Of a stretch of DNA of 64,000 nt, positions 7,739 to 32,931 are shown piece by piece. The notes beneath the pieces were generated by a model that saw only the letters and a list, made by a program, of their open reading frames with translations, made no database searches and was not told the origin of the DNA. The DNA lies in IMG/VR virus record IMGVR_UViG_3300042569_002050, positions 62,001 through 126,000 of that record; one strand, given 5' to 3'. Each line of letters starts with the position of its first letter. Positions within the stretch are counted from its first letter, which is position 1. The position numbers and the translations under genes are program-made. The stretch is from a virus.

Positions 7739-7750
7739 TTTTGAAAACCG

Positions 7751-7768
7751 AAGACCTGTCAGTATCTT
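7751..7768 (+). repeat. inverted repeat arm 2, upstream of groES
   Basis: AAGACCTGTCAGTATCTT is the reverse complement of the 7082-7100 arm apart from one missing base. It lies in the 55-nt gap between hsp20 and groES. Confidence 0.7.
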
Positions 7769-7793
7769 CATTTTACATACAAAAATAATAATA

Positions 7794-8084
7794 ATGAAAA
7801 TAAATGCGTTGCATAATCACGTTGTGATTAAACAAGATGAAAATCAAGAACAAAAGTATGGTAACATTGTTGTTGCCGATCTAGGTAAAGAAAAACCACT
7901 ACAAGGTGAAATTGTAGAAATTGGTCCTGGTAGATATACAGAAACAGGGGCTTTTGTTCCAACAACACTTAAAGTAGGGGACGTTGTGGTATTTCCTTCA
8001 TTTGGGGGTACTAAAATTACTGTTGATGATGTAGAATACATTATTATGAAGGAATCAGATTTGTTAATTGTATTAGAAAAATAA
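7794..8084 (+). CDS. groES: co-chaperonin GroES
   Basis: The 96-residue protein matches GroES in length and layout: an N-terminal strand INALHNHVVIKQDE, the mobile-loop region with YGNIVVAD, then GEIVEIGPGRY and a C-terminal VEYIIMKESDLLIVLE. It caps GroEL during folding. The next gene is groEL, three bases downstream, so the pair is co-transcribed. The mobile loop is EQKYGNIVVADLG in place of the usual Gly-Ile-Val-Leu form, which may tune binding to the phage's own GroEL. Confidence 0.93.
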   Translation: MKINALHNHVVIKQDENQEQKYGNIVVADLGKEKPLQGEIVEIGPGRYTETGAFVPTTLKVGDVVVFPSFGGTKITVDDVEYIIMKESDLLIVLEK

Positions 8085-8087
8085 ACT

Positions 8088-13340: not shown

Positions 13341-14795
13341 ATGAAAGAAGGTTATATTAAACAAGAGGATAGAAAGAAAATCCTATTACTTTGTGATGAT
13401 ATTAGAATGACGAGCGGTATATCCACTATGGCTAGAGAAATAGTAGTGGGTACCGCTCATCACTTTAATTGGGTCAATTTAGGTGGTGGTGTAAACCACC
13501 CTGAAGAAGGTAAAAAATTAGATATTTGTGCTAGTACTAACGAACATGCTGGTATTGAAGATTCTAGTGTATTTATTTATCCTGTAAAAGGATACGGCAC
13601 TATAGAATTTGTACGCCAAATCATCAAGAATGAAAAACCAGATGCAATGATGATCTTTACAGATCCTCGTTATTGGATTTGGTTATTTCAAAATGAGCAT
13701 GAGATAAGAAAACAAATGCCTCTTATTTATTTAAACATTTGGGATAGTATTCCTTACCCAATGTATAATAAATCATACTACGAGTCATGTGATGCTTTAC
13801 TAGCAATTAGTAAACAAACAGAAAACATTAATAGGGTTGTATTAGGGGAGGCAGCTGAAGAAAAAGTAATTAAATATGTTCCTCATGGAATAAATGAAAA
13901 TATTTTCTTCCCTATCACTGAAGATAAACCTGAATATTTAGCTTTACAAGAGTTTAAAAAACAATTGTTTGGTGATAAAAAATATGATTTTACATTATTA
14001 TATAATGCTAGAAACATAAGACGCAAATCAGTACCTGATTTGATGTTAGCATGGAATAAATTTCGTTCTCAATTACCTAAAGAAAAAGCAAGTAAAACTT
14101 GTTTAGTAATGCATACTCATGTAAAAGATGAGCATGGTACTGATTTAGAAGCAGTGCGAGATATGATCTTTGGAAAAGAAGGTGGAAACATTATCTTCTC
14201 TCAAGGTAAACAACCAGCACAAGTAATGAATTTACTTTACAATGCTTGTGATGCAACTGTATTACCTAGTAGTAATGAAGGATGGGGTTTAAGTTTAACT
14301 GAATCTATGATGTGTGGCAAACCTATTATAGCTACAGTAACAGGTGGTATGCAAGACCAAATGCGATTTGAAAATGAATTAGGTGAGTGGATTAAATTCA
14401 CTGAAGAGTTTGGTTCCAACCATAGAGGTAAATATAAAAACTGTGGTGGGTGGGCATTCCCCGTATTTCCAAACAATTTAAGTTTAGTAGGTTCTCAACC
14501 AACACCTTACATATTTGATGATAGAGCTGAACCATTTGCTATTGCTGAACAAATCTCAGTAGTATATGGTCTTAAAACAATCACACCTCAAAACTTTAAA
14601 GAAAGAGGCCAAGCAGCTTATAAATGGGTAACATCAGATGAATCAATGATGTCAGCTAGATTAATGTCTAAAAATGTTATAGACGGTATTGAAGAAACAT
14701 TTAAAAAATGGACTCCAAGATACACATATGAATTAATTCCTGTTGAAACCCCGGATCAACCACAACATTATAACCCTTATTTAATAGCAGAATAG
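13341..14795 (+). CDS. glycosyltransferase, GT4-like (GT-B fold)
   Basis: The 484-residue protein has a Rossmann-type start KKILLLCDDIRMTSGIS and the donor-binding signature PSSNEGWGLSLTESMMCGKP near residue 313, typical of GT4 enzymes. The sugar and acceptor are unknown. It starts a run of sugar and methyl transfer genes reaching to 19.3 kb that could decorate virion proteins, DNA or host glycans. Confidence 0.88.
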   Translation: MKEGYIKQEDRKKILLLCDDIRMTSGISTMAREIVVGTAHHFNWVNLGGGVNHPEEGKKLDICASTNEHAGIEDSSVFIYPVKGYGTIEFVRQIIKNEKPDAMMIFTDPRYWIWLFQNEHEIRKQMPLIYLNIWDSIPYPMYNKSYYESCDALLAISKQTENINRVVLGEAAEEKVIKYVPHGINENIFFPITEDKPEYLALQEFKKQLFGDKKYDFTLLYNARNIRRKSVPDLMLAWNKFRSQLPKEKASKTCLVMHTHVKDEHGTDLEAVRDMIFGKEGGNIIFSQGKQPAQVMNLLYNACDATVLPSSNEGWGLSLTESMMCGKPIIATVTGGMQDQMRFENELGEWIKFTEEFGSNHRGKYKNCGGWAFPVFPNNLSLVGSQPTPYIFDDRAEPFAIAEQISVVYGLKTITPQNFKERGQAAYKWVTSDESMMSARLMSKNVIDGIEETFKKWTPRYTYELIPVETPDQPQHYNPYLIAE

Positions 14796-14797
14796 TT

Positions 14798-16102
14798 ATG
14801 AAACCAGTTATAGCAATTAGTTGCCCAATAGATACATTTAGTGGCTATGGAGCAAGATCGAGAGATGTAGTTAAAGCACTTATCAACTCAGAAAAATATG
14901 AAGTTAAAATCCTATCACAAAGATGGGGTAGTACTCCATTTGGATTTTTAAATCCATCAAACCCAGACCATAAAAAAATTATTGATTGCATTCAGCTAAG
15001 CAATAATAAATTAGAAGGAGTTCCTGATATTTGGATTCAAATTACAGTACCTAACGAATTTCAAAAGGTAGGTAAATACAATATTGGTATTACTGCTGGT
15101 ATTGAAACGGATTTATGTGCTACTACTTGGATTGAAGGATGTAATAGAATGGATTTAGTATTAACTTCATGTAACCATTCTAAAAAGGTATTCTTAAATT
15201 CAAAATACGAACAACGTAAAAAAGACAATCCTGAAGAAGTTGTTGGAATAATTGAAACAACAGTACCAGTAGAAGTGTTGTTTGAAGGAGTTGATACTCA
15301 AATTTATAAAAAAACAAATAAAGTTGATGAAACTTTAGACGATATATTAAAAAGCATTCCTGAGCATTTTAATTTTTTAGTTGTTGGTCATTGGTTACAA
15401 GGTAATTTTGGGGAAGATAGAAAAAATATGGGTGGAACCATTAAAGCATTTCTTGAAACCTTTAAAAATAGAAAAATAAAACCAGGACTTATTCTAAAAG
15501 TAAATGGTGGTAATTATTCAATTATGGATAGAGACCAAATGATTGCTAAAATAGAAGAAGTTAAATCAATGGTTGATGGTGATTTACCAAACATTTATTT
15601 ATTACATGGTGAATTAACAGATGACGAAATGAATGGTTTATATAATCATTCCAAAGTAAAAGCAATGCTAAGCTTAACTAAAGGTGAAGGATATGGTAGA
15701 CCATTAATTGAATTCACTCAAGCACAAAAACCAATTGTTGTTAGTGGATGGAGTGGACATACTGATTTCTTAAGTAAAGAATTTAGTGTGTTTGTTGGTG
15801 GTGAAATAAAGCCAATAGATAAGAGTGCTGTTGTTGAAAATATGCTGATATTAGAATCAAAATGGTTTACTCCGGACTATAACCAAGCTTCATTAGCATT
15901 AAAAGCAGTTTATGCAGATTATGATGAGTATGTTGAAAAAGCAAAGAGACAGTCGTATATTTGTCGTAATGATTTTAGTTTAGAAAAAATGGGTGAAAAA
16001 TTAGTTGAAATATTAGATGCTAATTTTACTAAAGAAATACCACTTCCTAAGCTAAGCAAAACAACATTACCAACCTTAAATAAAGCTGAAGATGACAAGT
16101 AA
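14798..16102 (+). CDS. glycosyltransferase, GT-B fold
   Basis: The 434-residue protein starts ISCPIDTFSGYGARSRDV and has GEGYGRPLIEFTQAQKPIVV near residue 296, the donor site of GT1/GT4-type enzymes. It lies two bases after the previous glycosyltransferase gene and is probably a paralogue with a different specificity. Confidence 0.88.
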   Translation: MKPVIAISCPIDTFSGYGARSRDVVKALINSEKYEVKILSQRWGSTPFGFLNPSNPDHKKIIDCIQLSNNKLEGVPDIWIQITVPNEFQKVGKYNIGITAGIETDLCATTWIEGCNRMDLVLTSCNHSKKVFLNSKYEQRKKDNPEEVVGIIETTVPVEVLFEGVDTQIYKKTNKVDETLDDILKSIPEHFNFLVVGHWLQGNFGEDRKNMGGTIKAFLETFKNRKIKPGLILKVNGGNYSIMDRDQMIAKIEEVKSMVDGDLPNIYLLHGELTDDEMNGLYNHSKVKAMLSLTKGEGYGRPLIEFTQAQKPIVVSGWSGHTDFLSKEFSVFVGGEIKPIDKSAVVENMLILESKWFTPDYNQASLALKAVYADYDEYVEKAKRQSYICRNDFSLEKMGEKLVEILDANFTKEIPLPKLSKTTLPTLNKAEDDK

Positions 16103-16385
16103 AGAATTTGTAATTTGGTTGAAGGGATTTACAGAAGGGGTACATGAGTATAATCTTACTCCAAAACAATGGGATACATTGAAAGAAAAATTAGAAGAAG
16201 TAAATGATACCTCTAAAACACCCCCTTGCTCAGGTCATGATCAAGAAAGCTGGAATGAAGAAGAATTAGAACGTAGAATGGATATTATAGGACAGAATGG
16301 AAACGAAGGTCTTCACTACAACGCAGAAGATTTAGGTGGAAATTGGGTTACAACAACAACAAATAAATTAAAAAATAATGGATAA
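16092..16385 (+). CDS. conserved phage protein, 97 aa
   Basis: The N-terminus KEFVIWLKGFTEGVHEYNLT and TPKQWDTLKEKLEEV form a helical module I recognise only as a common phage hypothetical. It overlaps its upstream neighbour by 11 bases and its downstream neighbour by 8. Function unknown. Confidence 0.75.
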   Translation: MTSKEFVIWLKGFTEGVHEYNLTPKQWDTLKEKLEEVNDTSKTPPCSGHDQESWNEEELERRMDIIGQNGNEGLHYNAEDLGGNWVTTTTNKLKNNG

Positions 16386-16809
16386 ATTAATCACTTGCCC
16401 TATTTGTAGTTCAGACTTCTGTTATGAAGTAGAACAAGAGCAAAAGAAACTATGGCATTGTTTTGGATGTGGATTTGCTTCTAATTCAGATCAACATATT
16501 GAAAAAATCAATTTAGAACAAACAGAAGCTGTATTACCCGAATTATATAGAGCTATTAAAAAACTAGATAACAACGGATATTATTGGTATCCTTCAACAA
16601 TCAACCACCCAACTAAAGGAATGGTATTTGTTGATTTAGCCGATAATGTTTGGCAGTGGGCTGGAGTTAAAGCTACTCCTATTACTGAAGAAGAAAAAGC
16701 AAAATTCCCTGAAGGTGCTACTCACAAAGCAGATATGAAAACAATTCAACACTTTGGAAGCACATACATGGAGGCTTTAAATTACATTGAATATTTTAAA
16801 CAAGATTAA
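16378..16809 (+). CDS. zinc-ribbon hypothetical protein
   Basis: Two CX2C pairs at the N-terminus (CPIC and CFGC) form a zinc ribbon like those of primases or transcription factors. The remaining 110 residues (WYPSTINHPTKGMVFVDLAD) have no recognised domain. Confidence 0.75.
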   Translation: MDKLITCPICSSDFCYEVEQEQKKLWHCFGCGFASNSDQHIEKINLEQTEAVLPELYRAIKKLDNNGYYWYPSTINHPTKGMVFVDLADNVWQWAGVKATPITEEEKAKFPEGATHKADMKTIQHFGSTYMEALNYIEYFKQD

Positions 16810-17444
16810 TGCACGCAACTGCTGAAGCTAACGCTAGAAGATTTTTTGGAACTTATGTTAATCAAGTTTCAAACCCAATTATAACTGAAATAGGATCTCA
16901 AATAGGGGGAAATGGGAGAGAATTTAATATCCGTTCATTAGCCCCATCAGGTTCTAAGTACATAGGAATAGATTTAGAAAAAATGCCTGGGGTAGATGTA
17001 GTATTAGAGGATCCTTATAAATTTCCTATTGAAGATAATTCTGTAGATTTTATTGTGAGTTCTTCATGCTTTGAACATATTGAATTCTTCTGGTTAACAT
17101 TCTTAGAAGCAATAAGAATATTAAAACCAACAGGAGTTCTTTATATCAATGCTCCATCTATAGGAGCATTTCACAGATACCCTATGGATTATTGGAGATT
17201 CTTCCCAGATAGTGCACATTCATTATCTAATTGGGGAGTTAGAAATGGATATAATTGTGGTGTATTAGAACAATATACTAGTGATAAAGAAAATGACATT
17301 TGGAGTGATTATATATCAGTTTATATTAAAGATAAAAAATATATCTCCAACTACCCTAATAGAATAATTAATAATTTTAAGAACTATACTAATGGTTCTA
17401 TATATCCTCACAACACAATATCAAATGAATTAAAATGGAGATAA
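16809..17444 (+). CDS. class I SAM-dependent methyltransferase
   Basis: The SAM site is at ITEIGSQIGGNG (motif I) and YIGIDLEKMPGVDVV (acidic end of strand 2). SVDFIVSSSCFEHI is motif IV, as in type 11 methyltransferases acting on small molecules or sugars. Context suggests a sugar or lipid-linked acceptor rather than DNA. Length 211 residues. Confidence 0.82.
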   Translation: MHATAEANARRFFGTYVNQVSNPIITEIGSQIGGNGREFNIRSLAPSGSKYIGIDLEKMPGVDVVLEDPYKFPIEDNSVDFIVSSSCFEHIEFFWLTFLEAIRILKPTGVLYINAPSIGAFHRYPMDYWRFFPDSAHSLSNWGVRNGYNCGVLEQYTSDKENDIWSDYISVYIKDKKYISNYPNRIINNFKNYTNGSIYPHNTISNELKWR

Positions 17445-17995
17445 AGAAAAAATTACCTAACTTTAGGTATATGAGAACAGAATCTATTATGATCCAAGGG
17501 TTATATGATCTCATTGAGTATATAAATGAAATATCCCCAACCAAAAAAATGAAAATGGTTGAAATAGGATCTTATTTAGGCGAATCTACTTTAGTATTTG
17601 CTGATCATTTTAAAGAGGTTATTACAATAGATCCTTTTTTAGATGATTATGACCCAAACGACGAGACTTGTAAACATGTTTCTTTATCAGTAGTTCACGA
17701 ACAATTTTTACTAAATATAGAAGATAAAAATAATATTAAACACATTCAGAAATTATCAGATGATGCTATTGAAGATTTAAAAACTCAATCATTTGATTTT
17801 ATCTATATTGATGGTCTCCACACTTACGATCAAATAAAAAAAGATATTGAAAACTATCTCCCTTTAATAAAAAAAGGAGGATTTATAGCAGGACATGATT
17901 ACCACCCAAACCACCAAGGTGTTATTGATGGGATAAATGAGATGCTAAAGATAGATCAAACATTTTCTGATACTAGTTGGATTAAAAGAGTATAA
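17435..17995 (+). CDS. class I SAM-dependent methyltransferase (type 24-like)
   Basis: MVEIGSYLGESTLVFADHF is motif I, ITIDPFLDDYDP follows strand 2, and FDFIYIDGLHTYDQIKKD with GGFIAGHDY matches the Methyltransf_24 group found in cell-surface sugar clusters. It overlaps the previous methyltransferase gene by 10 bases. Confidence 0.82.
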   Translation: MEIKKKLPNFRYMRTESIMIQGLYDLIEYINEISPTKKMKMVEIGSYLGESTLVFADHFKEVITIDPFLDDYDPNDETCKHVSLSVVHEQFLLNIEDKNNIKHIQKLSDDAIEDLKTQSFDFIYIDGLHTYDQIKKDIENYLPLIKKGGFIAGHDYHPNHQGVIDGINEMLKIDQTFSDTSWIKRV

Positions 17996-17997
17996 TT

Positions 17998-18555
17998 ATG
18001 TTTTTAAATATTATAACACCATGTTCTAGGCCACAAAACCTAATGACAATAAGTAAAAGTATTAATATTCCTAAAGAGAATTATAGATGGATAGTTGTAC
18101 TAGACGCTTCTGATTTATCTACATTAAGTGAATATATTTTACCTGAAAATTGTGAGTTTCATAATTATCAAGAAGAAGGAAGTATAGCAGGTCATGCTCA
18201 AAGAAATTATGCTATTTCTCTTATAAATGAAGGGTATGTTTATTCAAATGATGATGATACTGTTATTCATTATGATTTATGGAATAATATTAAAGACCTA
18301 AATGAAAATTTTATTTCATTTGATCAGGAAAATCAAAATGGAACTTTTAGACTAAACGGAGACAATATCGCCTTACATAGAGTTGATAGTCATAATTTTA
18401 TAGTTGATAGAGAAACTATAGGTGATACAAGATTTCAAATTGAAAAATATGATGCTGATGGGTATTTTGCTGTAGAATGTTTTGGTAAAGCAAAAACAAA
18501 GTCGTATATTCCTAAGGTATTATCAACATATAACTCATTAAGATGGTATCCGTAA
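17998..18555 (+). CDS. GT-A-like glycosyltransferase
   Basis: MFLNIITPCSRPQNLMTI is a family 2-like N-terminus, and VYSNDDDTVIHYDLW carries the acidic DxD-type metal site near residue 85. At 185 residues it is short, roughly a minimal GT-A core. Acceptor unknown. Confidence 0.7.
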   Translation: MFLNIITPCSRPQNLMTISKSINIPKENYRWIVVLDASDLSTLSEYILPENCEFHNYQEEGSIAGHAQRNYAISLINEGYVYSNDDDTVIHYDLWNNIKDLNENFISFDQENQNGTFRLNGDNIALHRVDSHNFIVDRETIGDTRFQIEKYDADGYFAVECFGKAKTKSYIPKVLSTYNSLRWYP

Positions 18556-19325
18556 TAATTCCAACATATAAAGAACCTCACGCTTTAGACGTATGTCTAA
18601 AATCAGCAATTGAAGGACAAACAAATAAAAACCAAATTATAGTTGTTGTAGATGGTTTCTACGATATTAATAAAGAGGTATTAGATAAATATTCTAAACA
18701 TATTGATGTACTTAATTTACCTGAAAATAGAGGATTAAATACAGCTACTAATTTTGGAGTATACAATGCATCATCAGATAAGATATTAATTGTAAATGAT
18801 GATAATGTATTTGATAAAGATTGGGATGTTAAATTAGAAGAAATATATGATCCAAACATTGTTTGGGCTCCAAACCAAATAGAACCTAATCCAGGAATAT
18901 TTCAACAGTTTGTAATTCATCCTTTAGGAACAGTAGAAGAATTTGATATTAATAAATTTTGGGAATATACTGAAACAATCAATAGAAAAGAATCTGATAA
19001 CTGTGGTTCCACTCTTCCTATATTCATGAATAAAACCAAATATCTCCAAGTTGGGGGTTGGGACGAAACATATCCTGGTCCTTGGGTTGTTGATTGGGAA
19101 TTTTTTATGAAATGTGAAATGATGGGGATGGAGATGAAAAGAACATATAATACTCACTTTTATCATTTTGTTTCAGTAGGTACTAGAAAAGTAGAACCTG
19201 AAGTAACATATCAGAAAGGATTAATTGAGAGGGAATGCCATGAATATTTTAAATATAAATGGGGTTTCTATGGGTACCGAGACGGAAAAACAAATTCTAA
19301 CTGTCCTCCTTTGTTTAAGCAATAA
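18543..19325 (+). CDS. glycosyltransferase family 2
   Basis: VSVIIPTYKEPHALDVCL and IIVVVDGFYD are the GT2 N-terminal motifs, and LIVNDDNVFDKDWDVKL gives the DxD site near residue 81. GGWDETYPGPWVVDWEFF is the ED-type acceptor region. The protein has 260 residues and overlaps the previous gene by 13 bases. It ends the modification cassette. Confidence 0.88.
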   Translation: MVSVIIPTYKEPHALDVCLKSAIEGQTNKNQIIVVVDGFYDINKEVLDKYSKHIDVLNLPENRGLNTATNFGVYNASSDKILIVNDDNVFDKDWDVKLEEIYDPNIVWAPNQIEPNPGIFQQFVIHPLGTVEEFDINKFWEYTETINRKESDNCGSTLPIFMNKTKYLQVGGWDETYPGPWVVDWEFFMKCEMMGMEMKRTYNTHFYHFVSVGTRKVEPEVTYQKGLIERECHEYFKYKWGFYGYRDGKTNSNCPPLFKQ

Positions 19326-23546: not shown

Positions 23547-23937
23547 GGGGGTGCCTGGTTTTGACAGGTGCGATGAGTTGGTATAGTTGATGCAAGCCGG
23601 GTTAGATGGAAATCCGTAAATACCTATCGAACAATAAATGACGTAGAATTATCTACAATGACCTTCGAAGATGCTATGGCATTCGTTGGTGCGGATTACG
23701 CAGTAGCTGCCTAGTCCAACTCGGGTCGGTGCACATATAACCTAGGAACAGAAGTGCCTACAAAGGGGGTCTTAGGGTGGAGCCCTCATAAAATAATTCC
23801 ACAACCAGGTAATTTGGAAGTATGATTCCCACATACATCAAACTTCATATTTTGTTAATTTAGAAAAATTAACTAAGCTTGTGAACGAGATTTATTAAAT
23901 CCGTATCTGGACAAGGGTTCGACTCCCTTCACCTCCA
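23547..23937 (+). ncRNA. ssrA: transfer-messenger RNA (tmRNA)
   Basis: The 5' end GGGGGTGCCTGGTTTTGAC and the 3' end AAGGGTTCGACTCCCTT then CACCTCC are the tRNA-like domain of a one-piece tmRNA; GGGGGTG pairs with CACCTCC (one G-U). The length, 391 nt, is normal. Inside, a short reading frame ends GADYAVAA with TAG at 23712. tmRNA rescues stalled ribosomes and tags the unfinished protein for degradation. It is encoded last in the tRNA cluster and followed by a strong terminator. The host surely has its own copy, so this phage copy could compete with it or change the tag. Confidence 0.93.
23688..23714 (+). other. tmRNA tag-peptide frame (probable GADYAVAA)
   Basis: GGT GCG GAT TAC GCA GTA GCT GCC TAG follows TTCGTT. 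Known Bacteroidetes tags start with Gly and end in ALAA or AMAA, so the Gly at 23688 is the likely resume codon; the exact resume point is inferred. The AVAA ending differs from the common ALAA. Confidence 0.65.
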
Positions 23938-23943
23938 CAATTT

Positions 23944-24011: not shown

Positions 24012-24662
24012 ATGAAACAAATAGCCATAAACATGGCCACCAAACTGCGTGATGTGTTCGCGCTAGGTGTGTTCTATTTACTAGGATCCCTTGTAATAGC
24101 TGCATTAGTAGTACAATTGTATTTTGTATATTGTCAAATTTTTAAATCTTATGATGAAAATTTACAAATGTCTAATGCAATTAGTCATAAAATTGACGGT
24201 ACATTTAAAAATTCCCCAGGTAATATCTGGTATAACGCAGATGAACATATCTATGTTGAAAAAGTTACTAATAAAATAGTTGTTGGTAAATTAGCAGGTA
24301 ATCGTAATCTAGAATTTGGTGTTAAGAATGTATTAGAAGAATTTTTACAAGATAAAGGCTATAATATATCATCAGACGCTACAAACAAATTACGTGTCGA
24401 AATTGTTTATTTAGATGTATTAACTACTAAGAAAAATATTTCAGTTTTCCATAAAGGTGAAGAAGAAGTCATTATTCGTTTAAAAGGAATCTTATATAAA
24501 GATGGTATAAAAGAAAAAGAAATTATTGTTGAAGAATCTTCATCTGAAGTTTCCATGTCTACTTTACTTGTGGATGAAGGTGGTAAATTTAATCAAACTT
24601 CACTAAGTAATGCTCTCAAAAAAGGTTGTGATAAATTAGTCACAAAATTATTTGAAAAATAA
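24012..24662 (+). CDS. membrane-anchored lipoprotein-like protein, first gene of the export locus
   Basis: Residues about 15-45 form a single membrane span (FYLLGSLVIAALVVQLYFVY). The rest is a periplasmic-type alpha/beta domain with VLEEFLQDKGYNISSDATNK and EVSMSTLLVDEGGKFNQTSL, which loosely recalls YajG or CsgG-like lipoproteins. There is no lipobox. It is co-directional with and just upstream of two large secreted proteins, and may help their export. Confidence 0.7.
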   Translation: MKQIAINMATKLRDVFALGVFYLLGSLVIAALVVQLYFVYCQIFKSYDENLQMSNAISHKIDGTFKNSPGNIWYNADEHIYVEKVTNKIVVGKLAGNRNLEFGVKNVLEEFLQDKGYNISSDATNKLRVEIVYLDVLTTKKNISVFHKGEEEVIIRLKGILYKDGIKEKEIIVEESSSEVSMSTLLVDEGGKFNQTSLSNALKKGCDKLVTKLFEK

Positions 24663-24666
24663 AATC

Positions 24667-26316
24667 ATGAAAAAATTATTATTATTTTTAGGAATATTCC
24701 TAACATCATTAACATCATTTAGTCAGATTACTGTATCACAATCAGTTACTCCAGCCCCACCTTATGAAGTTGGTGATACTTTAACTGTAAAATACACAAT
24801 AGCTAGAGGAACAACAACACCTCGTTATTTTTGGTTGAGATACTCATTTAATAACAAGGCATTAGCGATGGTACCAAATAGTACAGTATTCTCACAAGGT
24901 ACATCAGTTCAAACATTCTTTACAGGTTGGAATAATTACAGATTTACCCCTGCAGCAAATGTTGCTGAAACTAATTTATCTGGACAATATCAAGCAACTC
25001 CTTGGGGTTATGCCGTAAATAATGATTGGAATGTTGGACAATTAACAGTTCAAAGAACAGATGCTGCAGTGAATGGTGATATTGCAACACAGAAGTTTGT
25101 ATTAAAAGACCAAAACACTTACAATGATATTCATAAATTGGATTTAGCTTATGCAGTAAATGATACTTCTTCCCCAATTACTCCAATTACTCGTAGTGCT
25201 ACTAATTTATCATTAACAAATGTAACAGGTAACACATCTCAATTCAAAGTTAAAGTATTGTTCCCACAAGGGTATACTATTACTGATCACAATGTTCAAT
25301 TAATGCCACTTAAAACAGATGGTAATATTGATTGGACAAAACAACCTATTGCTCAATTACCCTTAGATGGTAGTGGTGAAGCATTATTTACAACACAAGT
25401 TAAAGTTGGTGATTCGGTTGGTGTATTTGTTGGTCCATCAATGACTAAAGCTTGGATGAATAATATCATAACAGTATCAGATGCATACAAAGCATTTTTA
25501 GGACATTCTCAAACTGATATTAGTGGAACACCTAATTTCTTTACTTACCCTAATTTAGAAACTAGAGTAGGTAATGTAACACTAAATGATAATACATTTA
25601 ACGAATCCGATTCATATGCATTGTTTGCTCACGTAATGGGACAAAATATGAGTTCAGTAGCAATGATCCCAACATCAACCTCAACATCAGTAAGATGGCA
25701 AAGTGGACTATTAAACCAGAGTTGGTTAGATGGTGTTGCTAAAAATAAAGTATTAATTGATACACCAATAAAAGAAGTACATGCCGTATTTGCTTGGGGT
25801 GGTGATTTGAACTGGTCACACTCATCAGACCCTGCTGTAATTGCTACTAGAATTAGTAGTGGATTGTATACCAACTCAGTTAATGGTGAAGTGAATTTGA
25901 AAAAATCAATGAGTTCAACACCTGTGATGGCATATAGAACTGAAGCTGTAGAAACTGCTAAATTAAGTGTAACATCTACATTAGAAAATGGTAAAGTAAT
26001 ATTAACAACAACATTAACTAAAGCAGAATTAGCTGGGTTACAAGTGATAATGAATTATGATGAATCTAAATTAACATTAGACAATATCATATTTGATTCA
26101 GGTTCAACTATTACTAACTTTTCAACTCATAATGATGGTAGATTAACATTTGGTTCTATTGATCAATTAAAAACAGCAAGAATCAAAATTGGTACACCAT
26201 ATAAATTAATATTCACCCCTAAAGTACAATTAACAAATACTGCAGGTTTATTCTATTTTGTATTATCAGATGCGGTAGATGCTAAAGGAAATAAAATAGA
26301 CTTAATAATAGAATAA
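24667..26316 (+). CDS. secreted protein with dockerin-like and cohesin-like regions
   Basis: The start at 24667 gives a Sec signal peptide (KKLLLFLGIFLTSLTSFSQ). Residues about 20-140 are beta-rich. A dockerin-like pair lies near 270-325 (VSDAYKAFLG, then LNDNTFNESDSYALFAHVMG), though the first Asp of the calcium loop is weak. Residues about 430-549 look like a cohesin or Ig-like fold (GLQVIMNYDESKLTLDNI). The next gene has the same C-terminal order, so the two are paralogues. The product should be exposed on the infected cell or exported. There is no enzyme motif; adhesion is the best guess. Confidence 0.75.
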   Translation: MKKLLLFLGIFLTSLTSFSQITVSQSVTPAPPYEVGDTLTVKYTIARGTTTPRYFWLRYSFNNKALAMVPNSTVFSQGTSVQTFFTGWNNYRFTPAANVAETNLSGQYQATPWGYAVNNDWNVGQLTVQRTDAAVNGDIATQKFVLKDQNTYNDIHKLDLAYAVNDTSSPITPITRSATNLSLTNVTGNTSQFKVKVLFPQGYTITDHNVQLMPLKTDGNIDWTKQPIAQLPLDGSGEALFTTQVKVGDSVGVFVGPSMTKAWMNNIITVSDAYKAFLGHSQTDISGTPNFFTYPNLETRVGNVTLNDNTFNESDSYALFAHVMGQNMSSVAMIPTSTSTSVRWQSGLLNQSWLDGVAKNKVLIDTPIKEVHAVFAWGGDLNWSHSSDPAVIATRISSGLYTNSVNGEVNLKKSMSSTPVMAYRTEAVETAKLSVTSTLENGKVILTTTLTKAELAGLQVIMNYDESKLTLDNIIFDSGSTITNFSTHNDGRLTFGSIDQLKTARIKIGTPYKLIFTPKVQLTNTAGLFYFVLSDAVDAKGNKIDLIIE

Positions 26317-28592
26317 TGAAATATCTATTAGTTACATTATTTTTATTAACATCATTTTTAGGGTTCGGACAGAGTGTATCTGCTCCGGACTCTAAATCTT
26401 TTACACAATCTACATCAGGACAAGATGCTAGTGGGTTTGTATTAAGTGGATTTAATTCTACTGCAACTTTATTAGCATCAATTAGTTTAGTTAATCCACC
26501 AACTGGTACAACATTTAATTTAACTACAACAACAGGTCTAACAGCGGCAAGTGGATTCACTTTAACAGGTAATAAAACTCGATTAGTAGTTACTGGAACG
26601 ATGGTAAGTATTAATACGGCATTAGCATCTTTAAAAGTAAATACAGGTTCGGTAAGAGGTAATGTTGCATTATCTGTGGCAGCAACAGTCAATCCAGTAG
26701 GATATTATTACAATGGTGTAAACGGACACTTTTATAGACCAATAACAACCGGAGCAACTTATACAAACGCAAGATCAGCATCATTAAATACAACATTTAA
26801 AGGACAAAGAGGATATTTAGTAACAATCACTTCAGCAGATGAAGATGCATTTATTTTTAATAATGTGCCTCAAAGTAATATTTGGTTTGCGTTAACTGAT
26901 GAATTAGTCGAAGGTCAATGGAGAATCGATGCTGGCCCGGAAGCAGGAACTTTAATCAAAACATCAAACGGACAATTTGCCGGAAACATTCAAGGGCAGT
27001 ATAATAACTGGGCACCCGGTGAACCAAACAATAGTAGTAACGAAGATTATGCAGTAACTAAATGGAATGGTTCTCAATGGAACGATTTACCAAATCATTT
27101 TTCAAATCCGTATGTAATTGAATATGGAACTTGGACCAACCCAGATGATGCAACATTCACTGAATTCTACACTAACTCAGTAACACATACAAACGGAGAT
27201 GTATTAACTGCAAGATTTAATTTTGATTTTGGTGGTAATGTTGATGAAACAAAATTTACATCAAAAGCAAATACGTTTGTAAATAATACATGGGGTGTAA
27301 CAACAAATACATCAAGAGCATTAAGTGGATTAGGTAAAGTAGATTTAACAAATGATTTAGATACAGTAAAAGTAAGTGGTGAGGGAGTAAGAGCAACAAC
27401 AACAGGTGGAGAAGTAGAGTGGTGTGTGGTGTATGATTATGAACCTCAAAATCAACGATACCAAATTTTAATTGATAAGAGAGAATTTCCACAAGGCACC
27501 TCAGCAAGTAATGTTACAAGTTTACAGTTATTTGATTTATGGAATGGGCCTGTAACATATCAATGGGATGATGGAACATGGGCAGCTTATTGGATTTCAT
27601 CACCAACAGAACTTAATTTCTCAGGCTCATCATTTACATCTAGTATAAGACGAGCTGGATTTTTCTGGGGATTAAGAGCGGAATTTACATTCACACCTAA
27701 TATGATGTTTAAACAACATGGGATAGAATTATCTCATACTAATCAAACTGAATTGAATACATTATATAATAACATTGTGGGTGTATCAGATGTTTATCTA
27801 GCATTTAAGGAATTAGCAGATGGAGGTATATTTGGTAATCAAAGTGGATTAGGCTTAACAAATGGTATTCAATATATGAATGCTGATGTTGATGGTAATG
27901 GTGTATTTAATGAAAATGACACATACAAATTATTACAACATTTAACAGGTACTCAATCACTTACCCAAAATACTACTCTAACAAATTTAATAAAGCTATA
28001 CAATAAATCAGATTATGATGCTATAACAACGAGCAATTGGGGAACTCAATTTAATTCAACTCGTAATTTAATTCCATTTACTTTAAGTGGAATGAATAAT
28101 ACGTACAACATAAATGTAACTTGGTTAGGTGATGTAAACCAATCACATTCAGCTCAACAAAGCATTACTAATGTTAGTAGCAATTCAATTAGAACTATGA
28201 GTTTAATGAGTAATGCTATTATAAATGAAATAAATGTATCAACTATAGGTGAAATTATAAATAATAAGGTTATAATTATATTATCAGTAGACCCATTACA
28301 ACAAGAATTAGTAGGTACACAATTTCAATTAAATTATGATAATACTAGATTAAAGTTTGAAAAAGTTGAATTTATAACAAAAGGTAATCCTACTAATTTT
28401 GGAACTGATAAAGGTAATTTAATTAATATAGGATCATTGATAACAAGTGGAGATGTATTAGATAAGACAACTGAATATCGAGTTATATTCACTCCCGTAG
28501 GTAATATATCTGATATATTAGGGTTGACATCAATATCAACAACAGATGCTGTTAATAAAGCTGGTAAACAATTAAAAGTAAAAATCAAATGA
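26316..28592 (+). CDS. secreted C-type lectin protein with dockerin-like and cohesin-like regions
   Basis: A signal peptide ending FLGFGQ leads a 758-residue protein. After a beta domain (about 20-125), residues about 129-270 form a C-type lectin fold: FKGQRGYLVTITSADEDAF, IWFALTDELVEGQWRIDAG, YNNWAPGEPNNSSNEDYA and a closing WNDLPNHFSNPYVIEYG. NWAPGEPNN carries the EPN sugar-binding triplet. Near residue 521 DVDGNGVFNENDTYKLLQHL is a good dockerin-type calcium loop. The last 120 residues (GTQFQLNYDNTRLKFEKVEF) are cohesin-like. It starts at the last base of the previous gene. Very probably it is a sugar-binding surface adhesin. Confidence 0.85.
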   Translation: MKYLLVTLFLLTSFLGFGQSVSAPDSKSFTQSTSGQDASGFVLSGFNSTATLLASISLVNPPTGTTFNLTTTTGLTAASGFTLTGNKTRLVVTGTMVSINTALASLKVNTGSVRGNVALSVAATVNPVGYYYNGVNGHFYRPITTGATYTNARSASLNTTFKGQRGYLVTITSADEDAFIFNNVPQSNIWFALTDELVEGQWRIDAGPEAGTLIKTSNGQFAGNIQGQYNNWAPGEPNNSSNEDYAVTKWNGSQWNDLPNHFSNPYVIEYGTWTNPDDATFTEFYTNSVTHTNGDVLTARFNFDFGGNVDETKFTSKANTFVNNTWGVTTNTSRALSGLGKVDLTNDLDTVKVSGEGVRATTTGGEVEWCVVYDYEPQNQRYQILIDKREFPQGTSASNVTSLQLFDLWNGPVTYQWDDGTWAAYWISSPTELNFSGSSFTSSIRRAGFFWGLRAEFTFTPNMMFKQHGIELSHTNQTELNTLYNNIVGVSDVYLAFKELADGGIFGNQSGLGLTNGIQYMNADVDGNGVFNENDTYKLLQHLTGTQSLTQNTTLTNLIKLYNKSDYDAITTSNWGTQFNSTRNLIPFTLSGMNNTYNINVTWLGDVNQSHSAQQSITNVSSNSIRTMSLMSNAIINEINVSTIGEIINNKVIIILSVDPLQQELVGTQFQLNYDNTRLKFEKVEFITKGNPTNFGTDKGNLINIGSLITSGDVLDKTTEYRVIFTPVGNISDILGLTSISTTDAVNKAGKQLKVKIK

Positions 28593-28933
28593 TAAAAAAG
28601 ATATTACTAATATTTGTGGTCTTATTAGTGGGGTGTACTAAAATGGAAATAGAACCAACTCCAACCCCTGTTCAAAAGATATTTAATGTATCTGAGAGTA
28701 GTGTAACTGATGGACAATCTATACATTTTGATTTACCATCACCAGGAGTATATACATTAACCCTGATTGATAAGAAAAATGACCAAGTTGTTAGTAGAGA
28801 ACGATTCACTGGTAAAACGGGCGAAAATATAAAGAAGATTTACACGAGTTCAATACAGTCTCAATATTTATACTTAGTATTAGAAGATGGGTCTAGAACT
28901 CAAATAGCTAAAACAACCATTAAAATTAATTAA
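28589..28933 (+). CDS. small lipoprotein with T9SS-sorting-like beta domain
   Basis: A lipoprotein signal (FVVLLVGCTKM, lipobox LVGC) is followed by a Pro/Thr linker and about 75 residues of beta sandwich: PGVYTLTLIDKKNDQVVSRE and a late SSIQSQYLYLVLEDG. The order of strands is like a type IX secretion C-terminal sorting domain. It overlaps the lectin gene by four bases. Confidence 0.75.
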   Translation: MIKKILLIFVVLLVGCTKMEIEPTPTPVQKIFNVSESSVTDGQSIHFDLPSPGVYTLTLIDKKNDQVVSRERFTGKTGENIKKIYTSSIQSQYLYLVLEDGSRTQIAKTTIKIN

Positions 28934-28934
28934 A

Positions 28935-29303
28935 ATGAAAAAATTACTTGTAGTAGTATTACTAGCAGTTGGATTATCTGGATGTTATAAAGATGATTTA
29001 ATTGAACCTGTTTTAGAAGTTAAAAAAGAATTGCAAATCCAAAATGCAGTTGGACTTAAACTAGAATCAGCATTCGTGACAACTGAAGTTGCTATGAATG
29101 TTAAGTTAGAAACAGCACAATCCGTTACAATTAAGATTTTTGATATCTCCAATAGAGTCGTATCAAAAGAAACCGTAGTGGTTAAAGCAGGTGATAACTT
29201 ACTTAAAGTATATACATCAGCATTGCCTTCATCTGCTTATAGAATTGGATTATACGATTCTAAAGGTATTGAATTAGGAATAACAGATTTTAACAAACTA
29301 TAA
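28935..29303 (+). CDS. small lipoprotein with T9SS-sorting-like beta domain
   Basis: The lipobox LSGC sits after a 16-residue signal. The main part, VTIKIFDISNRVVSKETVVV and NLLKVYTSALPSSAYRIGLY, reads like a type A sorting domain (VxIxIFDxxGRVV...GxxxxxLxxLxxGxYxxxl). It is a paralogue of the previous gene product. As a lipoprotein it would face the periplasm or outer surface. Confidence 0.75.
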   Translation: MKKLLVVVLLAVGLSGCYKDDLIEPVLEVKKELQIQNAVGLKLESAFVTTEVAMNVKLETAQSVTIKIFDISNRVVSKETVVVKAGDNLLKVYTSALPSSAYRIGLYDSKGIELGITDFNKL

Positions 29304-29314
29304 ATTTAAATAAA

Positions 29315-29638
29315 ATGTCAGAAGAATTAGAACAAAACAATGATGGTACTTGGTCTGGATTAAAAAAGACTATTATTGGTGTTGCTACAACAGCAGTTAT
29401 GGGTTTAGGAACTTGGGGTGTAACTCAATTAACAGGTGGTGATAAAGAAGCAGCTCCTGCTACAGCACCAGCTCCAGTAATTAACATTACTAACTCAAAT
29501 CAACAACAACAATCTGCAGGTGGAACTACTATAATTAAAGAAAGAGTTGTTGAAAAGCCAGCAGCCGCTCAACCCGCAGCTAAACCTGCTAAGAAAAAAG
29601 AGGGTGATGAGTTTAAGGAAGAAGCTCCTAAGTGGTAA
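29315..29638 (+). CDS. small membrane-associated protein with Ala/Pro/Lys-rich tail
   Basis: One hydrophobic segment (KKTIIGVATTAVMGLGTWGV) is followed by a low-complexity Ala/Pro, Gln and Lys/Glu tail. No domain recognised. Its place before the holin-like genes suggests a membrane function. Confidence 0.7.
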   Translation: MSEELEQNNDGTWSGLKKTIIGVATTAVMGLGTWGVTQLTGGDKEAAPATAPAPVINITNSNQQQQSAGGTTIIKERVVEKPAAAQPAAKPAKKKEGDEFKEEAPKW

Positions 29639-29657
29639 TTTATAAACAAAATTAGAT

Positions 29658-30266
29658 ATGCAACCAAACACAGGATTTAAAGAATTATTAAACAAGATGA
29701 TGGCCAGAAGATGGTACATCACAGCAATGGTATTAGGTGGGTTTATTTTAATAATAGCAGGTATTTTTGCTGCTGTTGTGGGACAAACACCAATGGCAGC
29801 AGCATGGAAAGAATTATTAATGTTATTGTTAGGTGCCTTCATTGGTAGTTATGGTAAGATTATTGATTACTGGTTCAGTGATACTGACAAAGATAAAATG
29901 TTAGTACAGAAGATGGATGAAGAAGATGGTGTTACTTTAGGTCATACTAATGATATGAAAGAAACAAACAAACCAGTTACTCCATTGATCCCAGATGCAT
30001 TTGTAGCAGGTGCTGCAGCAGCTAGAGATTTAGCTGTAGTTGAAAATAAACAAAACCATGAATTAGCAGCTGATCAACAAGAACATAATCAAGCAATGGC
30101 TAAAGATGCTCAAGAACATGAGCAAGAAATGGCTAAATTAAAATTAGAGCATGAAATGAAAGCACATAGATACTGTGAACACGTTTGGGGTGACTCAGAC
30201 AATGACGGTGAATTAGAGTGTCAAAAGTGTGGTTTATTGAAAGATGCTTACGACGAATCTCACTAA
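29658..30266 (+). CDS. holin-like membrane protein with coiled-coil and zinc motif
   Basis: Two membrane spans (residues about 20-45 and 50-72) end in GAFIGSYGKIIDYWFSD, a pattern of holin-like phage proteins. A long Glu/Gln/His-rich helix follows, then a C-terminal cysteine pair (CEHVWGD and CQKCG). It could be a holin or a membrane scaffold. 202 residues. Confidence 0.7.
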   Translation: MQPNTGFKELLNKMMARRWYITAMVLGGFILIIAGIFAAVVGQTPMAAAWKELLMLLLGAFIGSYGKIIDYWFSDTDKDKMLVQKMDEEDGVTLGHTNDMKETNKPVTPLIPDAFVAGAAAARDLAVVENKQNHELAADQQEHNQAMAKDAQEHEQEMAKLKLEHEMKAHRYCEHVWGDSDNDGELECQKCGLLKDAYDESH

Positions 30267-30284
30267 CCATTAAAAATTAAAAGT

Positions 30285-30524
30285 ATGAATTTCAAACAGT
30301 GGGTTATTGATCTATTCAAAGATGAAAGAGGATCAACTTCAGTAAAACCGGTTATCGCATTTGTAGGAGCTATGTTCTTATGTGTTACAATGATGTTAAA
30401 CTCATTTTCACATGCTGATTTTGCTCCATCAGCTGAATTAGTAAACGCAGTAATGGTAATTACCGCGATTGGAATGGGTGCTGATACATTCGATAAATTC
30501 TCTCATAAAAAGAAAGAAGATTAA
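30285..30524 (+). CDS. holin-like two-span membrane protein
   Basis: The start FKQWVIDLFKDERGSTSVKP followed by two hydrophobic helices and a charged tail (DKFSHKKKED) resembles small phage holins. 79 residues. It ends the operon before a strong terminator. The endolysin is far away at 62 kb, so the lysis role is only inferred. Confidence 0.7.
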   Translation: MNFKQWVIDLFKDERGSTSVKPVIAFVGAMFLCVTMMLNSFSHADFAPSAELVNAVMVITAIGMGADTFDKFSHKKKED

Positions 30525-30536
30525 AAAAACAAAACT

Positions 30537-30561
30537 AAAGGGAACTTCGGTTCCCTTTTTT
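30537..30561 (+). terminator. strong intrinsic terminator
   Basis: AAAGGGAAC and GTTCCCTTT close a TTCG tetraloop, then T residues follow. Confidence 0.88.
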
Positions 30562-30576
30562 AAATTTAAAACATGT

Positions 30577-31296
30577 ATGAAAAATTTATTTATATTATTA
30601 AGTTGCTTTTTACTAAGCAACATTGCTGTGGCTCAAAACGTAGGTTCAACAAAAACTGAACAATATAAAGCATCATTCGAAACTGCGATTGATATTTCTC
30701 GTTTTATGGATTATGAAGGTAAACAAATCCCAATTCAAATCTTAAAGGCAGGTATATCTGATGAAATGTATGAGATGTATCCTGAATTAAAAGAAAAAAG
30801 AGTTGGTTTAGGTGTAGCTAACATTTCAATGGAATATTTAGAGAACCTTAATCGTTTTAAATTTACTGAAGATAAAACAGAAATTAAAAACAGAATGGTT
30901 AAGCAATTCCAAGCATCACAAGCAGGTATTTCTGAGAATAAATTAGATGGTCGAGGTAAAATTAATCTAGCTGAATACTTCGTTACAATCGAATGTTATG
31001 ATTACTCAGTATCTGAAGATGAAACTATCAACCTAAAAGATGGAGTTAAAAACATGATGGTAACTCGTATTGGTTTACAAGTTCGATTTACTAATGCTGA
31101 GACTGGTGTTGTGTTTGCAGCATCTGGTTTAGGTGAAGCCACTACAACTAGAGAATTAACATTCTTATCAGATGCAACTGTGGATGAAATGAAATTCAAT
31201 CAATCAACTATTTCTATAGCAACAAAGAAAGCATTAGATATCGCTTGTGCTAGAATTTTAGATAGAATGGTTAAGAAAGGCATATTTCCAAACTAA
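30577..31296 (+). CDS. CsgG-like outer-membrane secretion protein
   Basis: The start at 30577 gives a signal peptide (NLFILLSCFLLSNIAVAQ) without lipobox; a longer frame from 30469 runs through the terminator and is rejected. RVGLGVANISMEYLENLNR, RMVKQFQASQAGISE, an AEYFVTIECYDYSVSEDE strand pair and GLQVRFTNAETGVVFAASG match CsgG/curli secretion lipoproteins, which form nonameric pores. The lack of a lipid-anchor Cys is unusual; a Cys in the signal peptide (LLSC) is too early. It is followed, with one-base overlap, by a probable outer-membrane barrel gene. Confidence 0.75.
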   Translation: MKNLFILLSCFLLSNIAVAQNVGSTKTEQYKASFETAIDISRFMDYEGKQIPIQILKAGISDEMYEMYPELKEKRVGLGVANISMEYLENLNRFKFTEDKTEIKNRMVKQFQASQAGISENKLDGRGKINLAEYFVTIECYDYSVSEDETINLKDGVKNMMVTRIGLQVRFTNAETGVVFAASGLGEATTTRELTFLSDATVDEMKFNQSTISIATKKALDIACARILDRMVKKGIFPN

Positions 31297-32696
31297 TGAA
31301 AAAATGGTTAATAAGTTTATTATTAATCACCCTTTTCCTATTTGCTAAAACAGCAAGTGGGCAGGTTTATACTCAAACTTTTATTGATAAATGTTCAGGT
31401 CAAGTTAAAATTGCTACTACAACCATAGTAAATGGTAACTCAATAGTATCATTTTATGGACAGGTAAGATCATTTACTCCAGCACAAGTGGCAAGTGGAG
31501 AATTACAAATATGGCTCCAAACAACTTACGCTTACTATAATTCACTAGCATGTCCCGTAGCAGCACCCGTAGTAACACAAACAGTACAAAATACAGTATC
31601 ACAAGCAGCATCTCAAGCAGCAAGCTCAGCAGCATCATCAGCAGCAAGTTCAGCAGCATCAAATGCAGCCTCAGGAGCAGCAAGTGGAGCAGCTTCAGGA
31701 GCCGCATCTACAGGAGCGTCAGCAGCAAGTTCAGGAGCAGCTACCTCGAGTGGTACATCTACCCAATCATCATCCTCTTCATCCTCATCATCATCTTCCC
31801 AATCGTCTTCATCTTCTGGGTCTTCCTCTTCATCAAATTCTGGTGGAGAAAAGAAAAGCGAAAGCAGCAGTTCAAGCAGCGAATCAAAGTCAGAGAGTAA
31901 ATCTGAATCTAAGTCTGAATCCAAATCAGAAGAGAAAAAAGAAGAAAGTAAATCTGAGTCTAAAGAAGAAAAGAAAGAAGAAAAAAAGGAAGAATCTAAA
32001 GAAGAAAAGAAAGAGGATAAAAAAGAAGAAAAGAAACAAGTTAAAATGAATCCAATAATGTTGGGTTCTGATTTAACTGTAGCTCAAAATCCCACTGGTG
32101 GGTTTACACCTGTCATGTCATTAAGTATGTCTCAAGCATCAACTACAGGTGAATCTAGTTGGGGTGTATCAAGTATGATTTGGATGGATTTTAAATCATT
32201 TGCTTTATCTGCTAATAAAAGCACGATGAATTTTAAAAACGGAGCACTCAAATCAATAGATGCCTATTCATATACCGTTGCTTACGTAGCAGGTACACAT
32301 ATGACTTTTGGTGGTTTCACCCATGTTGTGCCTCACCCGAAATATGGAACATATGGGTATAACTTATCTATTATTAATATTAAACTGAAATTAGCTGAAA
32401 ATAGTTATTCATACTCAATGATGTCATCAGCTACAGCATTTTGGACTAAACCATATCAAATAAGCAGAAAATCAACCTTATCTCCAGGAGTGTTCTTAAT
32501 GGCCTCTCCATACACATACAACAGTAAGTTAGGAAGTACTTGGAATTATAATGTAATGAGTTTGGTGGGCACAGGATACAGTCTTAAATTGAGCAAAAGA
32601 TTTGGATTTAACATTGATTATAAAGCTAGTGTATCAACGGTACCTGGCTCTCCAATATTAAGTTTCTTTCTAATAGGTTCAAGACTTCAACTATAA
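31296..32696 (+). CDS. probable outer-membrane protein with Ala/Ser and Lys/Glu low-complexity linker
   Basis: A signal peptide (residues 1-22) leads a short domain with two Cys and FYGQVRSFTPAQVASGELQI. Residues about 95-250 are low complexity in three blocks: Ala/Ser, poly-Ser, then Ser/Lys/Glu. The last 210 residues (SLSMSQASTTGESSWGVSSM, then many alternating strands, ending FFLIGSRLQL with a terminal hydrophobic) look like a beta barrel. It probably sits in the outer membrane as partner of the CsgG-like protein, with the linker outside or in the periplasm. Confidence 0.7.
   Translation: MKKWLISLLLITLFLFAKTASGQVYTQTFIDKCSGQVKIATTTIVNGNSIVSFYGQVRSFTPAQVASGELQIWLQTTYAYYNSLACPVAAPVVTQTVQNTVSQAASQAASSAASSAASSAASNAASGAASGAASGAASTGASAASSGAATSSGTSTQSSSSSSSSSSSQSSSSSGSSSSSNSGGEKKSESSSSSSESKSESKSESKSESKSEEKKEESKSESKEEKKEEKKEESKEEKKEDKKEEKKQVKMNPIMLGSDLTVAQNPTGGFTPVMSLSMSQASTTGESSWGVSSMIWMDFKSFALSANKSTMNFKNGALKSIDAYSYTVAYVAGTHMTFGGFTHVVPHPKYGTYGYNLSIINIKLKLAENSYSYSMMSSATAFWTKPYQISRKSTLSPGVFLMASPYTYNSKLGSTWNYNVMSLVGTGYSLKLSKRFGFNIDYKASVSTVPGSPILSFFLIGSRLQL
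31590..32040 (+). repeat. low-complexity coding repeats (Ala/Ser, Ser, Lys/Glu)
   Basis: Repeats of GCA/AGC-type codons, then TCATCT-type Ser codons, then GAAAAGAAA-type Lys/Glu codons. Such stretches are prone to length changes. They also produce long false frames in other phases. Confidence 0.85.
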
Positions 32697-32698
32697 AA

Positions 32699-32731
32699 TT
32701 GGTTCGGTCAAAACCTCAATCGTATATTTAC
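32699..32731 (+). promoter_or_regulatory. host-type promoter of the 55-aa lipoprotein
   Basis: TTGG at 32699, a 20-bp spacer, TATATTTAC at 32723, then an A-rich leader to 32764. Confidence 0.6.
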
Positions 32732-32763
32732 ATCAAATAAATTTATTAAACAAAAACAAACAA

Positions 32764-32931
32764 ATGAAAAAAGTAATCGCAATTTTCGCAATCGCAGCTT
32801 TGACTGCATGTGGTGGTAAAGGTACTTCAACTGAAGGAACTGATTCAACAGCAGTATCAACTGACACTACAGCAGTAGTAACAGATTCAACAGAATGTAT
32901 CGCACCTAATGATACAACTGTAACTAAGTAA
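32764..32931 (+). CDS. small Thr-rich lipoprotein, 55 aa
   Basis: MKKVIAIFAIAALTACGGKG has a clear lipobox (LTAC). The mature part is about 40 residues of Thr, Ser, Asp and Val. Its own strong promoter and the terminator-like hairpin behind it mark it as an independent gene. Superinfection exclusion or surface masking would be typical roles for such a lipoprotein, but nothing shows which. Confidence 0.75.
   Translation: MKKVIAIFAIAALTACGGKGTSTEGTDSTAVSTDTTAVVTDSTECIAPNDTTVTK

Follow-up and report, generated by a model that had tools for sequence, protein, structure and literature searches.

What a phage gains from a compact group of genes for exported proteins is the question raised by the locus described here. 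It lies in a window of 64,000 nucleotides, corresponding to positions 62001–126000 of the 132,147-bp IMG/VR record IMGVR_UViG_3300042569_002050. The first-pass annotation, made from the sequence alone, proposed that the phage uses this locus to remodel the surface of the infected cell, possibly against superinfection, for clumping of cells or for the capture of nutrients or virions. According to the present analysis, the locus is probably a cassette for export and display whose target is the host envelope during infection rather than the virion, and the infected cell may in this way become stickier or shielded from other viruses. All open reading frames reported previously were found again at the same coordinates (Table 1). 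The best start codon of gene B is the ATG at 24670, not the TTG at 24652, and gene I starts with the ATG at 30577.

Table 1. Genes and other features of the cassette (positions in the window; domain boundaries of B and C from domain profiles)
Feature	Position	Strand	Description
A	24012..24662	+	216 aa; N-terminal membrane anchor and periplasmic YajG/CsgG-like domain
B	24670..26316	+	Secreted; unassigned N-terminal domain, dockerin-like domain 25447–25878, cohesin 25945–26304
C	26316..28592	+	Secreted; C-type lectin 26805–27116, dockerin-like domain 27756–28217, cohesin 28227–28580
D	28589..28933	+	Lipoprotein, lipobox LVGC; domain related to T9SS sorting domain
E	28935..29303	+	Lipoprotein, lipobox LSGC followed by YKDDLI; T9SS-sorting-domain-like fold, surface-export-like motif C-YKDD
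F	29315..29638	+	Single membrane helix after a short cytoplasmic N-terminus; tail rich in Pro/Ala/Gln, its terminal Trp invariant in the alignment
G	29658..30266	+	Membrane protein, two helices, Cys-rich tail; accessory
H	30285..30524	+	Small membrane protein, two helices; accessory
Hairpin between H and I	30537..30558	.	Bidirectional terminator-like, by consensus match only; stem of 9 bp between T-rich flanks
I	30577..31296	+	Secreted/outer-membrane protein with predicted CsgG fold (AlphaFold2 and Foldseek)
J	31296..32696	+	Small N-terminal domain, low-complexity linker of ~160 aa, predicted C-terminal 12-stranded outer-membrane barrel 32055–32693

In the genome, the cassette occupies 86–95 kb, directly past a tRNA/tmRNA cluster, and is distant both from the sheath and tube genes (35–38 kb) and from a baseplate gene (122 kb). 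The sole isolated relatives found were the Flavobacterium phages vB_FspM_immuto (hereafter immuto; host Flavobacterium sp. LMO8, Baltic Sea mesocosm). They match the window record in the sheath (51% identity) and the tube protein (66%) and have many metabolic genes in common with it.

Export signals are concentrated in the locus. A signal peptide or an N-terminal anchor was called in 8 of 10 ORFs inside it vs 13 of 103 outside (Fisher p = 1.4e-5) by a simple heuristic, not SignalP, and heuristic calls likewise predict Sec signal peptides for nearly all cargo proteins, B among them (MKKLLLFLGIFLTSLTSFSQ). The earlier description of two large secreted proteins (B and C), of signal peptides and of C-type lectin and dockerin motifs agrees with the domain searches. 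The lectin of C exceeded the Pfam cut-off (Lectin_C, 1.6e-6), and Dockerin_1 was detected in 24 of 66 relatives (best 1.1e-4), with weak similarity of the dockerin-like domain to PDB dockerins (E 0.1–0.7) at the matching position. The same description overlooked the cohesin domains that domain profiles place in both B and C. Pfam Cohesin was identified in 51 of 66 aligned relatives, a scaffoldin cohesin from the PDB was matched at 1.1e-4, and cohesin profiles of different lineages aligned with each other at 98% in HHalign. The window proteins taken alone are below Pfam significance for Cohesin; immuto gp015 is over the cut-off (5.9e-9).

Among the relatives, the large secreted proteins have in common a conserved dockerin-like domain, which a cohesin may follow, and differ in the N-terminal head, which alternates between Lectin_C, GEVED and PA14. 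This arrangement suggests a modular cargo design, likewise overlooked before, in which interchangeable heads are placed on a conserved dockerin-like tail. Outside the cassette, a search of parts of both this genome and the immuto genome, which covered the tail and baseplate regions, gave no dockerin, cohesin or sorting domain. The N-terminal domain of B was also considered as a second cohesin, by comparison with immuto gp014, and this assignment was ruled out by HHalign. A DGR origin of the lectin variation was rejected as well, since no RVT_1 reverse transcriptase was found in the 132-kb record, which is possibly incomplete.

Comparison with other lineages indicates how such proteins could be held at the surface. 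Immuto gp015 has a cohesin and, after it, a genuine T9SS type A sorting domain (TIGR04183, 9.3e-12), a feature of the relatives that had also been overlooked, and in the third lineage (L118) a cohesin, a dockerin, a second cohesin and a sorting domain are located within one polypeptide. A sorting domain over the cut-off was recorded in 7 of 7 tested records of the two other lineages vs 0 of 5 records of the window lineage. In the window, the TIGR04183 search gave no match for B, C and D and a value of 0.063, below the cut-off, for E; the Pfam Por_Secre_tail match of E (0.029) is below the cut-off too. Since neither B nor C of the window has a sorting domain, their own export by the T9SS was ruled out.

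The annotation had listed three lipoproteins, two of them with sorting-domain-like folds. D and E are confirmed as lipoproteins, with a lipobox in 74 of 77 family members; the third one, K (55 aa), is outside the conserved set, as it was present in 15 loci, in several of them on the opposite strand. Kinship of D and E with sorting domains was evaluated exclusively from lineage-separated profiles, an earlier profile that had absorbed D/E being partly circular. The profile from other lineages only matched 66 of 100 members of the D/E family at E up to 10 (best 9.6e-5), with a value of 0.011 for window E and no match for window D. In HHalign, the family aligned with genuine T9SS sorting domains at 85%, vs ~1% for negative controls. 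The sorting-domain likeness thus holds at the family level; in the window itself E stays under the Pfam/NCBIfam cut-offs and D has no match, so that the support is weaker for D than for E.

E, and not D, fits the pattern C-X-K-(D/E)2 after the lipidated cysteine. CxK(D/E)2 is the surface-export signal of Capnocytophaga lipoproteins, defined experimentally (PMC5080379), and it was identified in 10 of 22 distinct E proteins, whereas none of 25 control lipoproteins encoded by the same phages had it (p = 1.2e-4). Judging from these architectures, in the window lineage the cohesin seems to have joined the lectin protein, and the sorting role seems to have been split off to the lipoproteins D and E.

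As for A, F, I and J, their features point to a putative export machinery, for which structure models were built from 36–52 sequences. The earlier assignment of I as a CsgG-like protein is supported by the fold: the AlphaFold2 model (36 relatives, pLDDT 76) retrieved CsgG structures in all top 20 positions of the Foldseek search (best E 1.2e-6, prob 1.00), with an overall TM-score of only 0.4–0.5. As regards a possible pore across the outer membrane, as formed by CsgG, the model, which is of moderate confidence, contains long hairpin strands at 134–173 but a second hairpin region that is shorter than that of CsgG and of low confidence. Pfam CsgG was detected in 2 of 36 relatives (best 1.9e-4); the sequence profile of I had no match among solved structures, and CsgG was obtained from the fold comparison only. 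Protein A exceeded the Pfam cut-off for Lipoprotein_16 (3.8e-6) and is homologous to I (HHalign 96%), a relationship absent from the first-pass annotation. The homolog of F in immuto is gp016.

The outer-membrane barrel predicted earlier for J was reproduced with high reliability: the AlphaFold2 model (mean pLDDT 92) has 12 long strands, and Foldseek returned porins, FapF and autotransporter barrels. The best E-values belonged to the oligosaccharide porins KdgM/NanC, and TM-scores, up to 0.72, were higher to the amyloid exporter FapF than to porins. A comparison of the barrel profile with solved structures gave nothing meaningful. Between C and D, locus L010 and about half of the loci of the window type encode a further barrel protein (~297 aa), which is paralogous to the C-terminal domain of J but has no linker.

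The cassette is known from the isolate immuto and from hundreds of IMG/VR contigs, and its carriers form a family of viruses from aquatic habitats with Flavobacterium-like hosts. A scan of viral contigs revealed 477 relatives of window I and 113 of immuto I (the sets may overlap); many contigs are near-duplicates, with 114 distinct I proteins among 161 loci. Co-occurrence was assessed in the 76 retrieved loci that had flanks of 8.5 kb or more on each side, and counts for gene A were made with I excluded, because A and I cross-match. A, F, I and J together with secreted dockerin-like and cohesin domains were present in all 76 of these loci, and a sorting-type domain in 64. F was found in 142 of 143 loci with I. 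As a guard against the bias of selecting on I, a scan selecting on F instead was performed, in which some contigs recur from the first scans; it gave I in 65/65, J in 58/59, the upstream dockerin/cohesin protein in 54/54 and A in 37/37. Co-occurrence in related phages, which the annotation had named as a check of its proposal, was therefore observed in both ways, with conservation of gene order.

Three gene orders were distinguished, namely, A-B-C-D-E-F-G-I-J in the window type, lectin-gp014-gp015-F-I-J-A in the immuto type, and, in the third type, one large scaffold followed by F-I-(G)-J-A and a displayed protein. Protein I is strongly conserved, with 50–57% identity across lineages and ~70 invariant positions. 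In bacterial genomes (~85,000 species), only two MAG contigs matched, their bins being labelled Flavobacterium sp. and uncultured Bacteroidetes, and the machinery had no match in the 300 other family members searched. This near-absence from bacterial genomes makes the machinery look phage-specific.

The following working scheme can be proposed for the cassette. The host Sec pathway would export B, C and the outer-membrane parts, and the lipoprotein branch would take D and E, as predicted from signal sequences. J, given its predicted fold, would insert in the outer membrane as a 12-stranded barrel; I, with its predicted CsgG fold, and the related A may form a periplasmic or outer-membrane ring; and F, anchored in the inner membrane and possessing an extended tail, could bridge both membranes. 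B and C would then pass the outer membrane via the I/J/A/F apparatus. The cohesin scaffold would presumably go through the host T9SS wherever the lineage possesses a genuine sorting domain of that system.

On the surface, the domain architecture suggests that dockerin-like domains would dock to cohesins of the same or neighbouring proteins. The layer would be anchored by surface-directed lipoproteins (window D and E) or by T9SS-attached cohesin proteins (immuto gp015), and lectin, GEVED or PA14 heads would be left exposed outward. The benefit would likely lie in the changed surface, which may mask receptors from competing phages or cause infected cells to stick together or to polysaccharide. 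In its most complete form, the scheme describes a secretion system of the outer membrane that is peculiar to phages and composed of the CsgG-fold ring, the 12-stranded barrel, F as a rod in the inner membrane and the CsgG-like A. Its exported proteins, with both a dockerin-like domain and a cohesin, would polymerise head to tail and so cover the infected cell with a coat studded with lectins; taken as a whole, this form is tentative and rather doubtful. If the display reading is true, lytic phages whose hosts are abundant degraders of polysaccharide rebuild the surface of infected cells with an export apparatus of their own and swappable adhesins, which would affect how cells aggregate and how carbon moves through lakes and seas.

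Remodelling of the cell surface is the best-supported reading in view of the exported proteins, the conserved co-occurrence and the domains absent from the searched structural genes. The part of the annotation that called F, G and H holin-like was not upheld, as no holin family matched them in Pfam or PHROGs. The same proteins are relevant for the possibility that the locus is a lysis module, whose CsgG-like protein, barrel and small membrane proteins serve to breach the outer membrane or to set the time of lysis; such a function was proposed for CsgGF of the methylophage Melnitz (PMC9004378), and F, G and H are indeed small membrane proteins within the cassette. However, searches in Pfam/PHROGs gave no convincing score for spanin or holin families, and the endolysin relative is located at 124 kb of the genome, ~30 kb from the cassette. 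G and H are also not conserved: G is present in many but not all relatives, H in only 7 of 80 and without a family match in Pfam or PHROGs, and immuto has neither. Moreover, lectin, dockerin, cohesin and sorting domains, which have no lysis role, accompany the machinery in every fully flanked locus, and a lysis module is therefore unlikely.

C-type lectin folds are common among phage receptor-binding proteins, and the N-terminal heads of the cargo vary as host-range determinants do, so the lectin proteins might attach to virions, e.g., in the periplasm or after lysis, and aid adsorption. The Sec signal peptides of the cargo, the distance of its genes from those of sheath, tube and baseplate, the lack of cohesin or dockerin-like domains in the structural genes searched and the separate annotation of tail fibres and spikes in immuto make such decoration of virions improbable; no proteomic study of immuto virions was found in the open literature. 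Import of polysaccharide fragments by a lectin layer and a NanC/KdgM-like porin J, feeding phage production, would agree with the best Foldseek E-values of J and with the lectin heads. Yet the cassette proteins searched gave no match to a glycoside hydrolase family, the 12-stranded fold is common to exporters and the TM-scores are higher to FapF, GEVED and PA14 occur among the heads as well, and the CsgG-like parts would be left unexplained; nutrient capture thus appears unlikely.

The display cassette can be compared with several known systems. Curli-type (T8SS) genes were described in pelagiphages (PMC7029224, PMC9599517) and in methylophage Melnitz (PMC9004378), with sibling capture, superinfection exclusion, uptake and lysis control as suggested roles; no clumping was observed for the curli-bearing Melnitz (PMC9004378). 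Like phage curli, the cassette is a conserved cluster of several genes that lies apart from the structural genes and encodes a protein of CsgG fold, and a role in surface properties or aggregation is proposed for it. Unlike phage curli, its cargo is of the cohesin/dockerin/lectin type, a 12-stranded barrel is added and the host is Flavobacterium (isolate immuto). No curlin repeats (CsgA/B), CsgE or CsgF were found among the Pfam matches of the ten cassette proteins, where small divergent relatives could escape, and the cassette is accordingly not regarded as a curli system. What purpose curli-type genes serve in marine phages is a matter that has been studied in hosts of slow growth. An equally conserved, differently built cassette in an isolated Flavobacterium phage makes surface display, aggregation and superinfection exclusion directly testable.

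T9SS cargo is also encoded by Cryophage (PMC7468147), whose proteins combine a type A sorting domain of the T9SS with heads that vary, PA14 being one of these, and in this respect resemble those of the cassette. In contrast to Cryophage, a cohesin scaffold bears the sorting domain in the other lineages, lipoproteins take its place in the window lineage, and the cassette has a dedicated CsgG-like/barrel module, which the passages considered do not mention for Cryophage. J resembles Pseudomonas FapF (PMC5557850) in having a 12-stranded outer-membrane barrel after an N-terminal domain and a flexible linker, but the low-complexity linker of J is much longer. FapF is further characterized by a trimeric periplasmic coiled coil and a plug helix; the model of J covered its C-terminal barrel. 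Families of the Fap partners (FapB/C amyloid, FapD peptidase) were not identified among the Pfam matches of the cassette.

With cellulosome scaffoldins, the cassette shares a cohesin over the Pfam cut-off (immuto gp015), dockerin-like domains and a predicted surface-anchored scaffold. It differs from the cellulosome in that no catalytic modules were found, the heads are adhesion domains, and the window proteins hold a dockerin-like domain and a cohesin in one polypeptide. No precedent for a cohesin-dockerin layer in phages was found in the searched open literature. From its domain content, the cassette appears to combine elements of phage curli and phage T9SS cargo with a cohesin-dockerin layer, the window lineage being without canonical T9SS cargo.

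Several additional features of the genome were noted. T-runs on both strands of the hairpin between H and I suggest that I–J are possibly transcribed separately from A–H. Immediately 5' of the cassette (window 23547–23938), there is a phage tmRNA (Rfam 100 bits) with the 24-residue tag DVELSTMTFEDAMAFVGADYAVAA, and tags ending in FVGxDYAVAA were observed near the cassette in several relatives (six loci); Melnitz also carries ssrA paired with csgGF (PMC9004378). A phage-encoded Hsp20-like protein and GroEL are located at window positions 7148–9713. A glycosyltransferase cluster at 13341–19325, which has a counterpart in immuto, is perhaps involved in modification of the surface or of DNA/virion sugars. 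QueE-like and GTP cyclohydrolase genes at 458–2281, a QueC relative just upstream of the window and DpdA of immuto point to 7-deazaguanine DNA modification. The C-terminal Cys-rich stretch of G (CEHVWG...CQKCG) is zinc-ribbon-like, which is odd in a small membrane protein. The cassette was also detected in four contigs of 269–326 kb, i.e., in phages of jumbo size.
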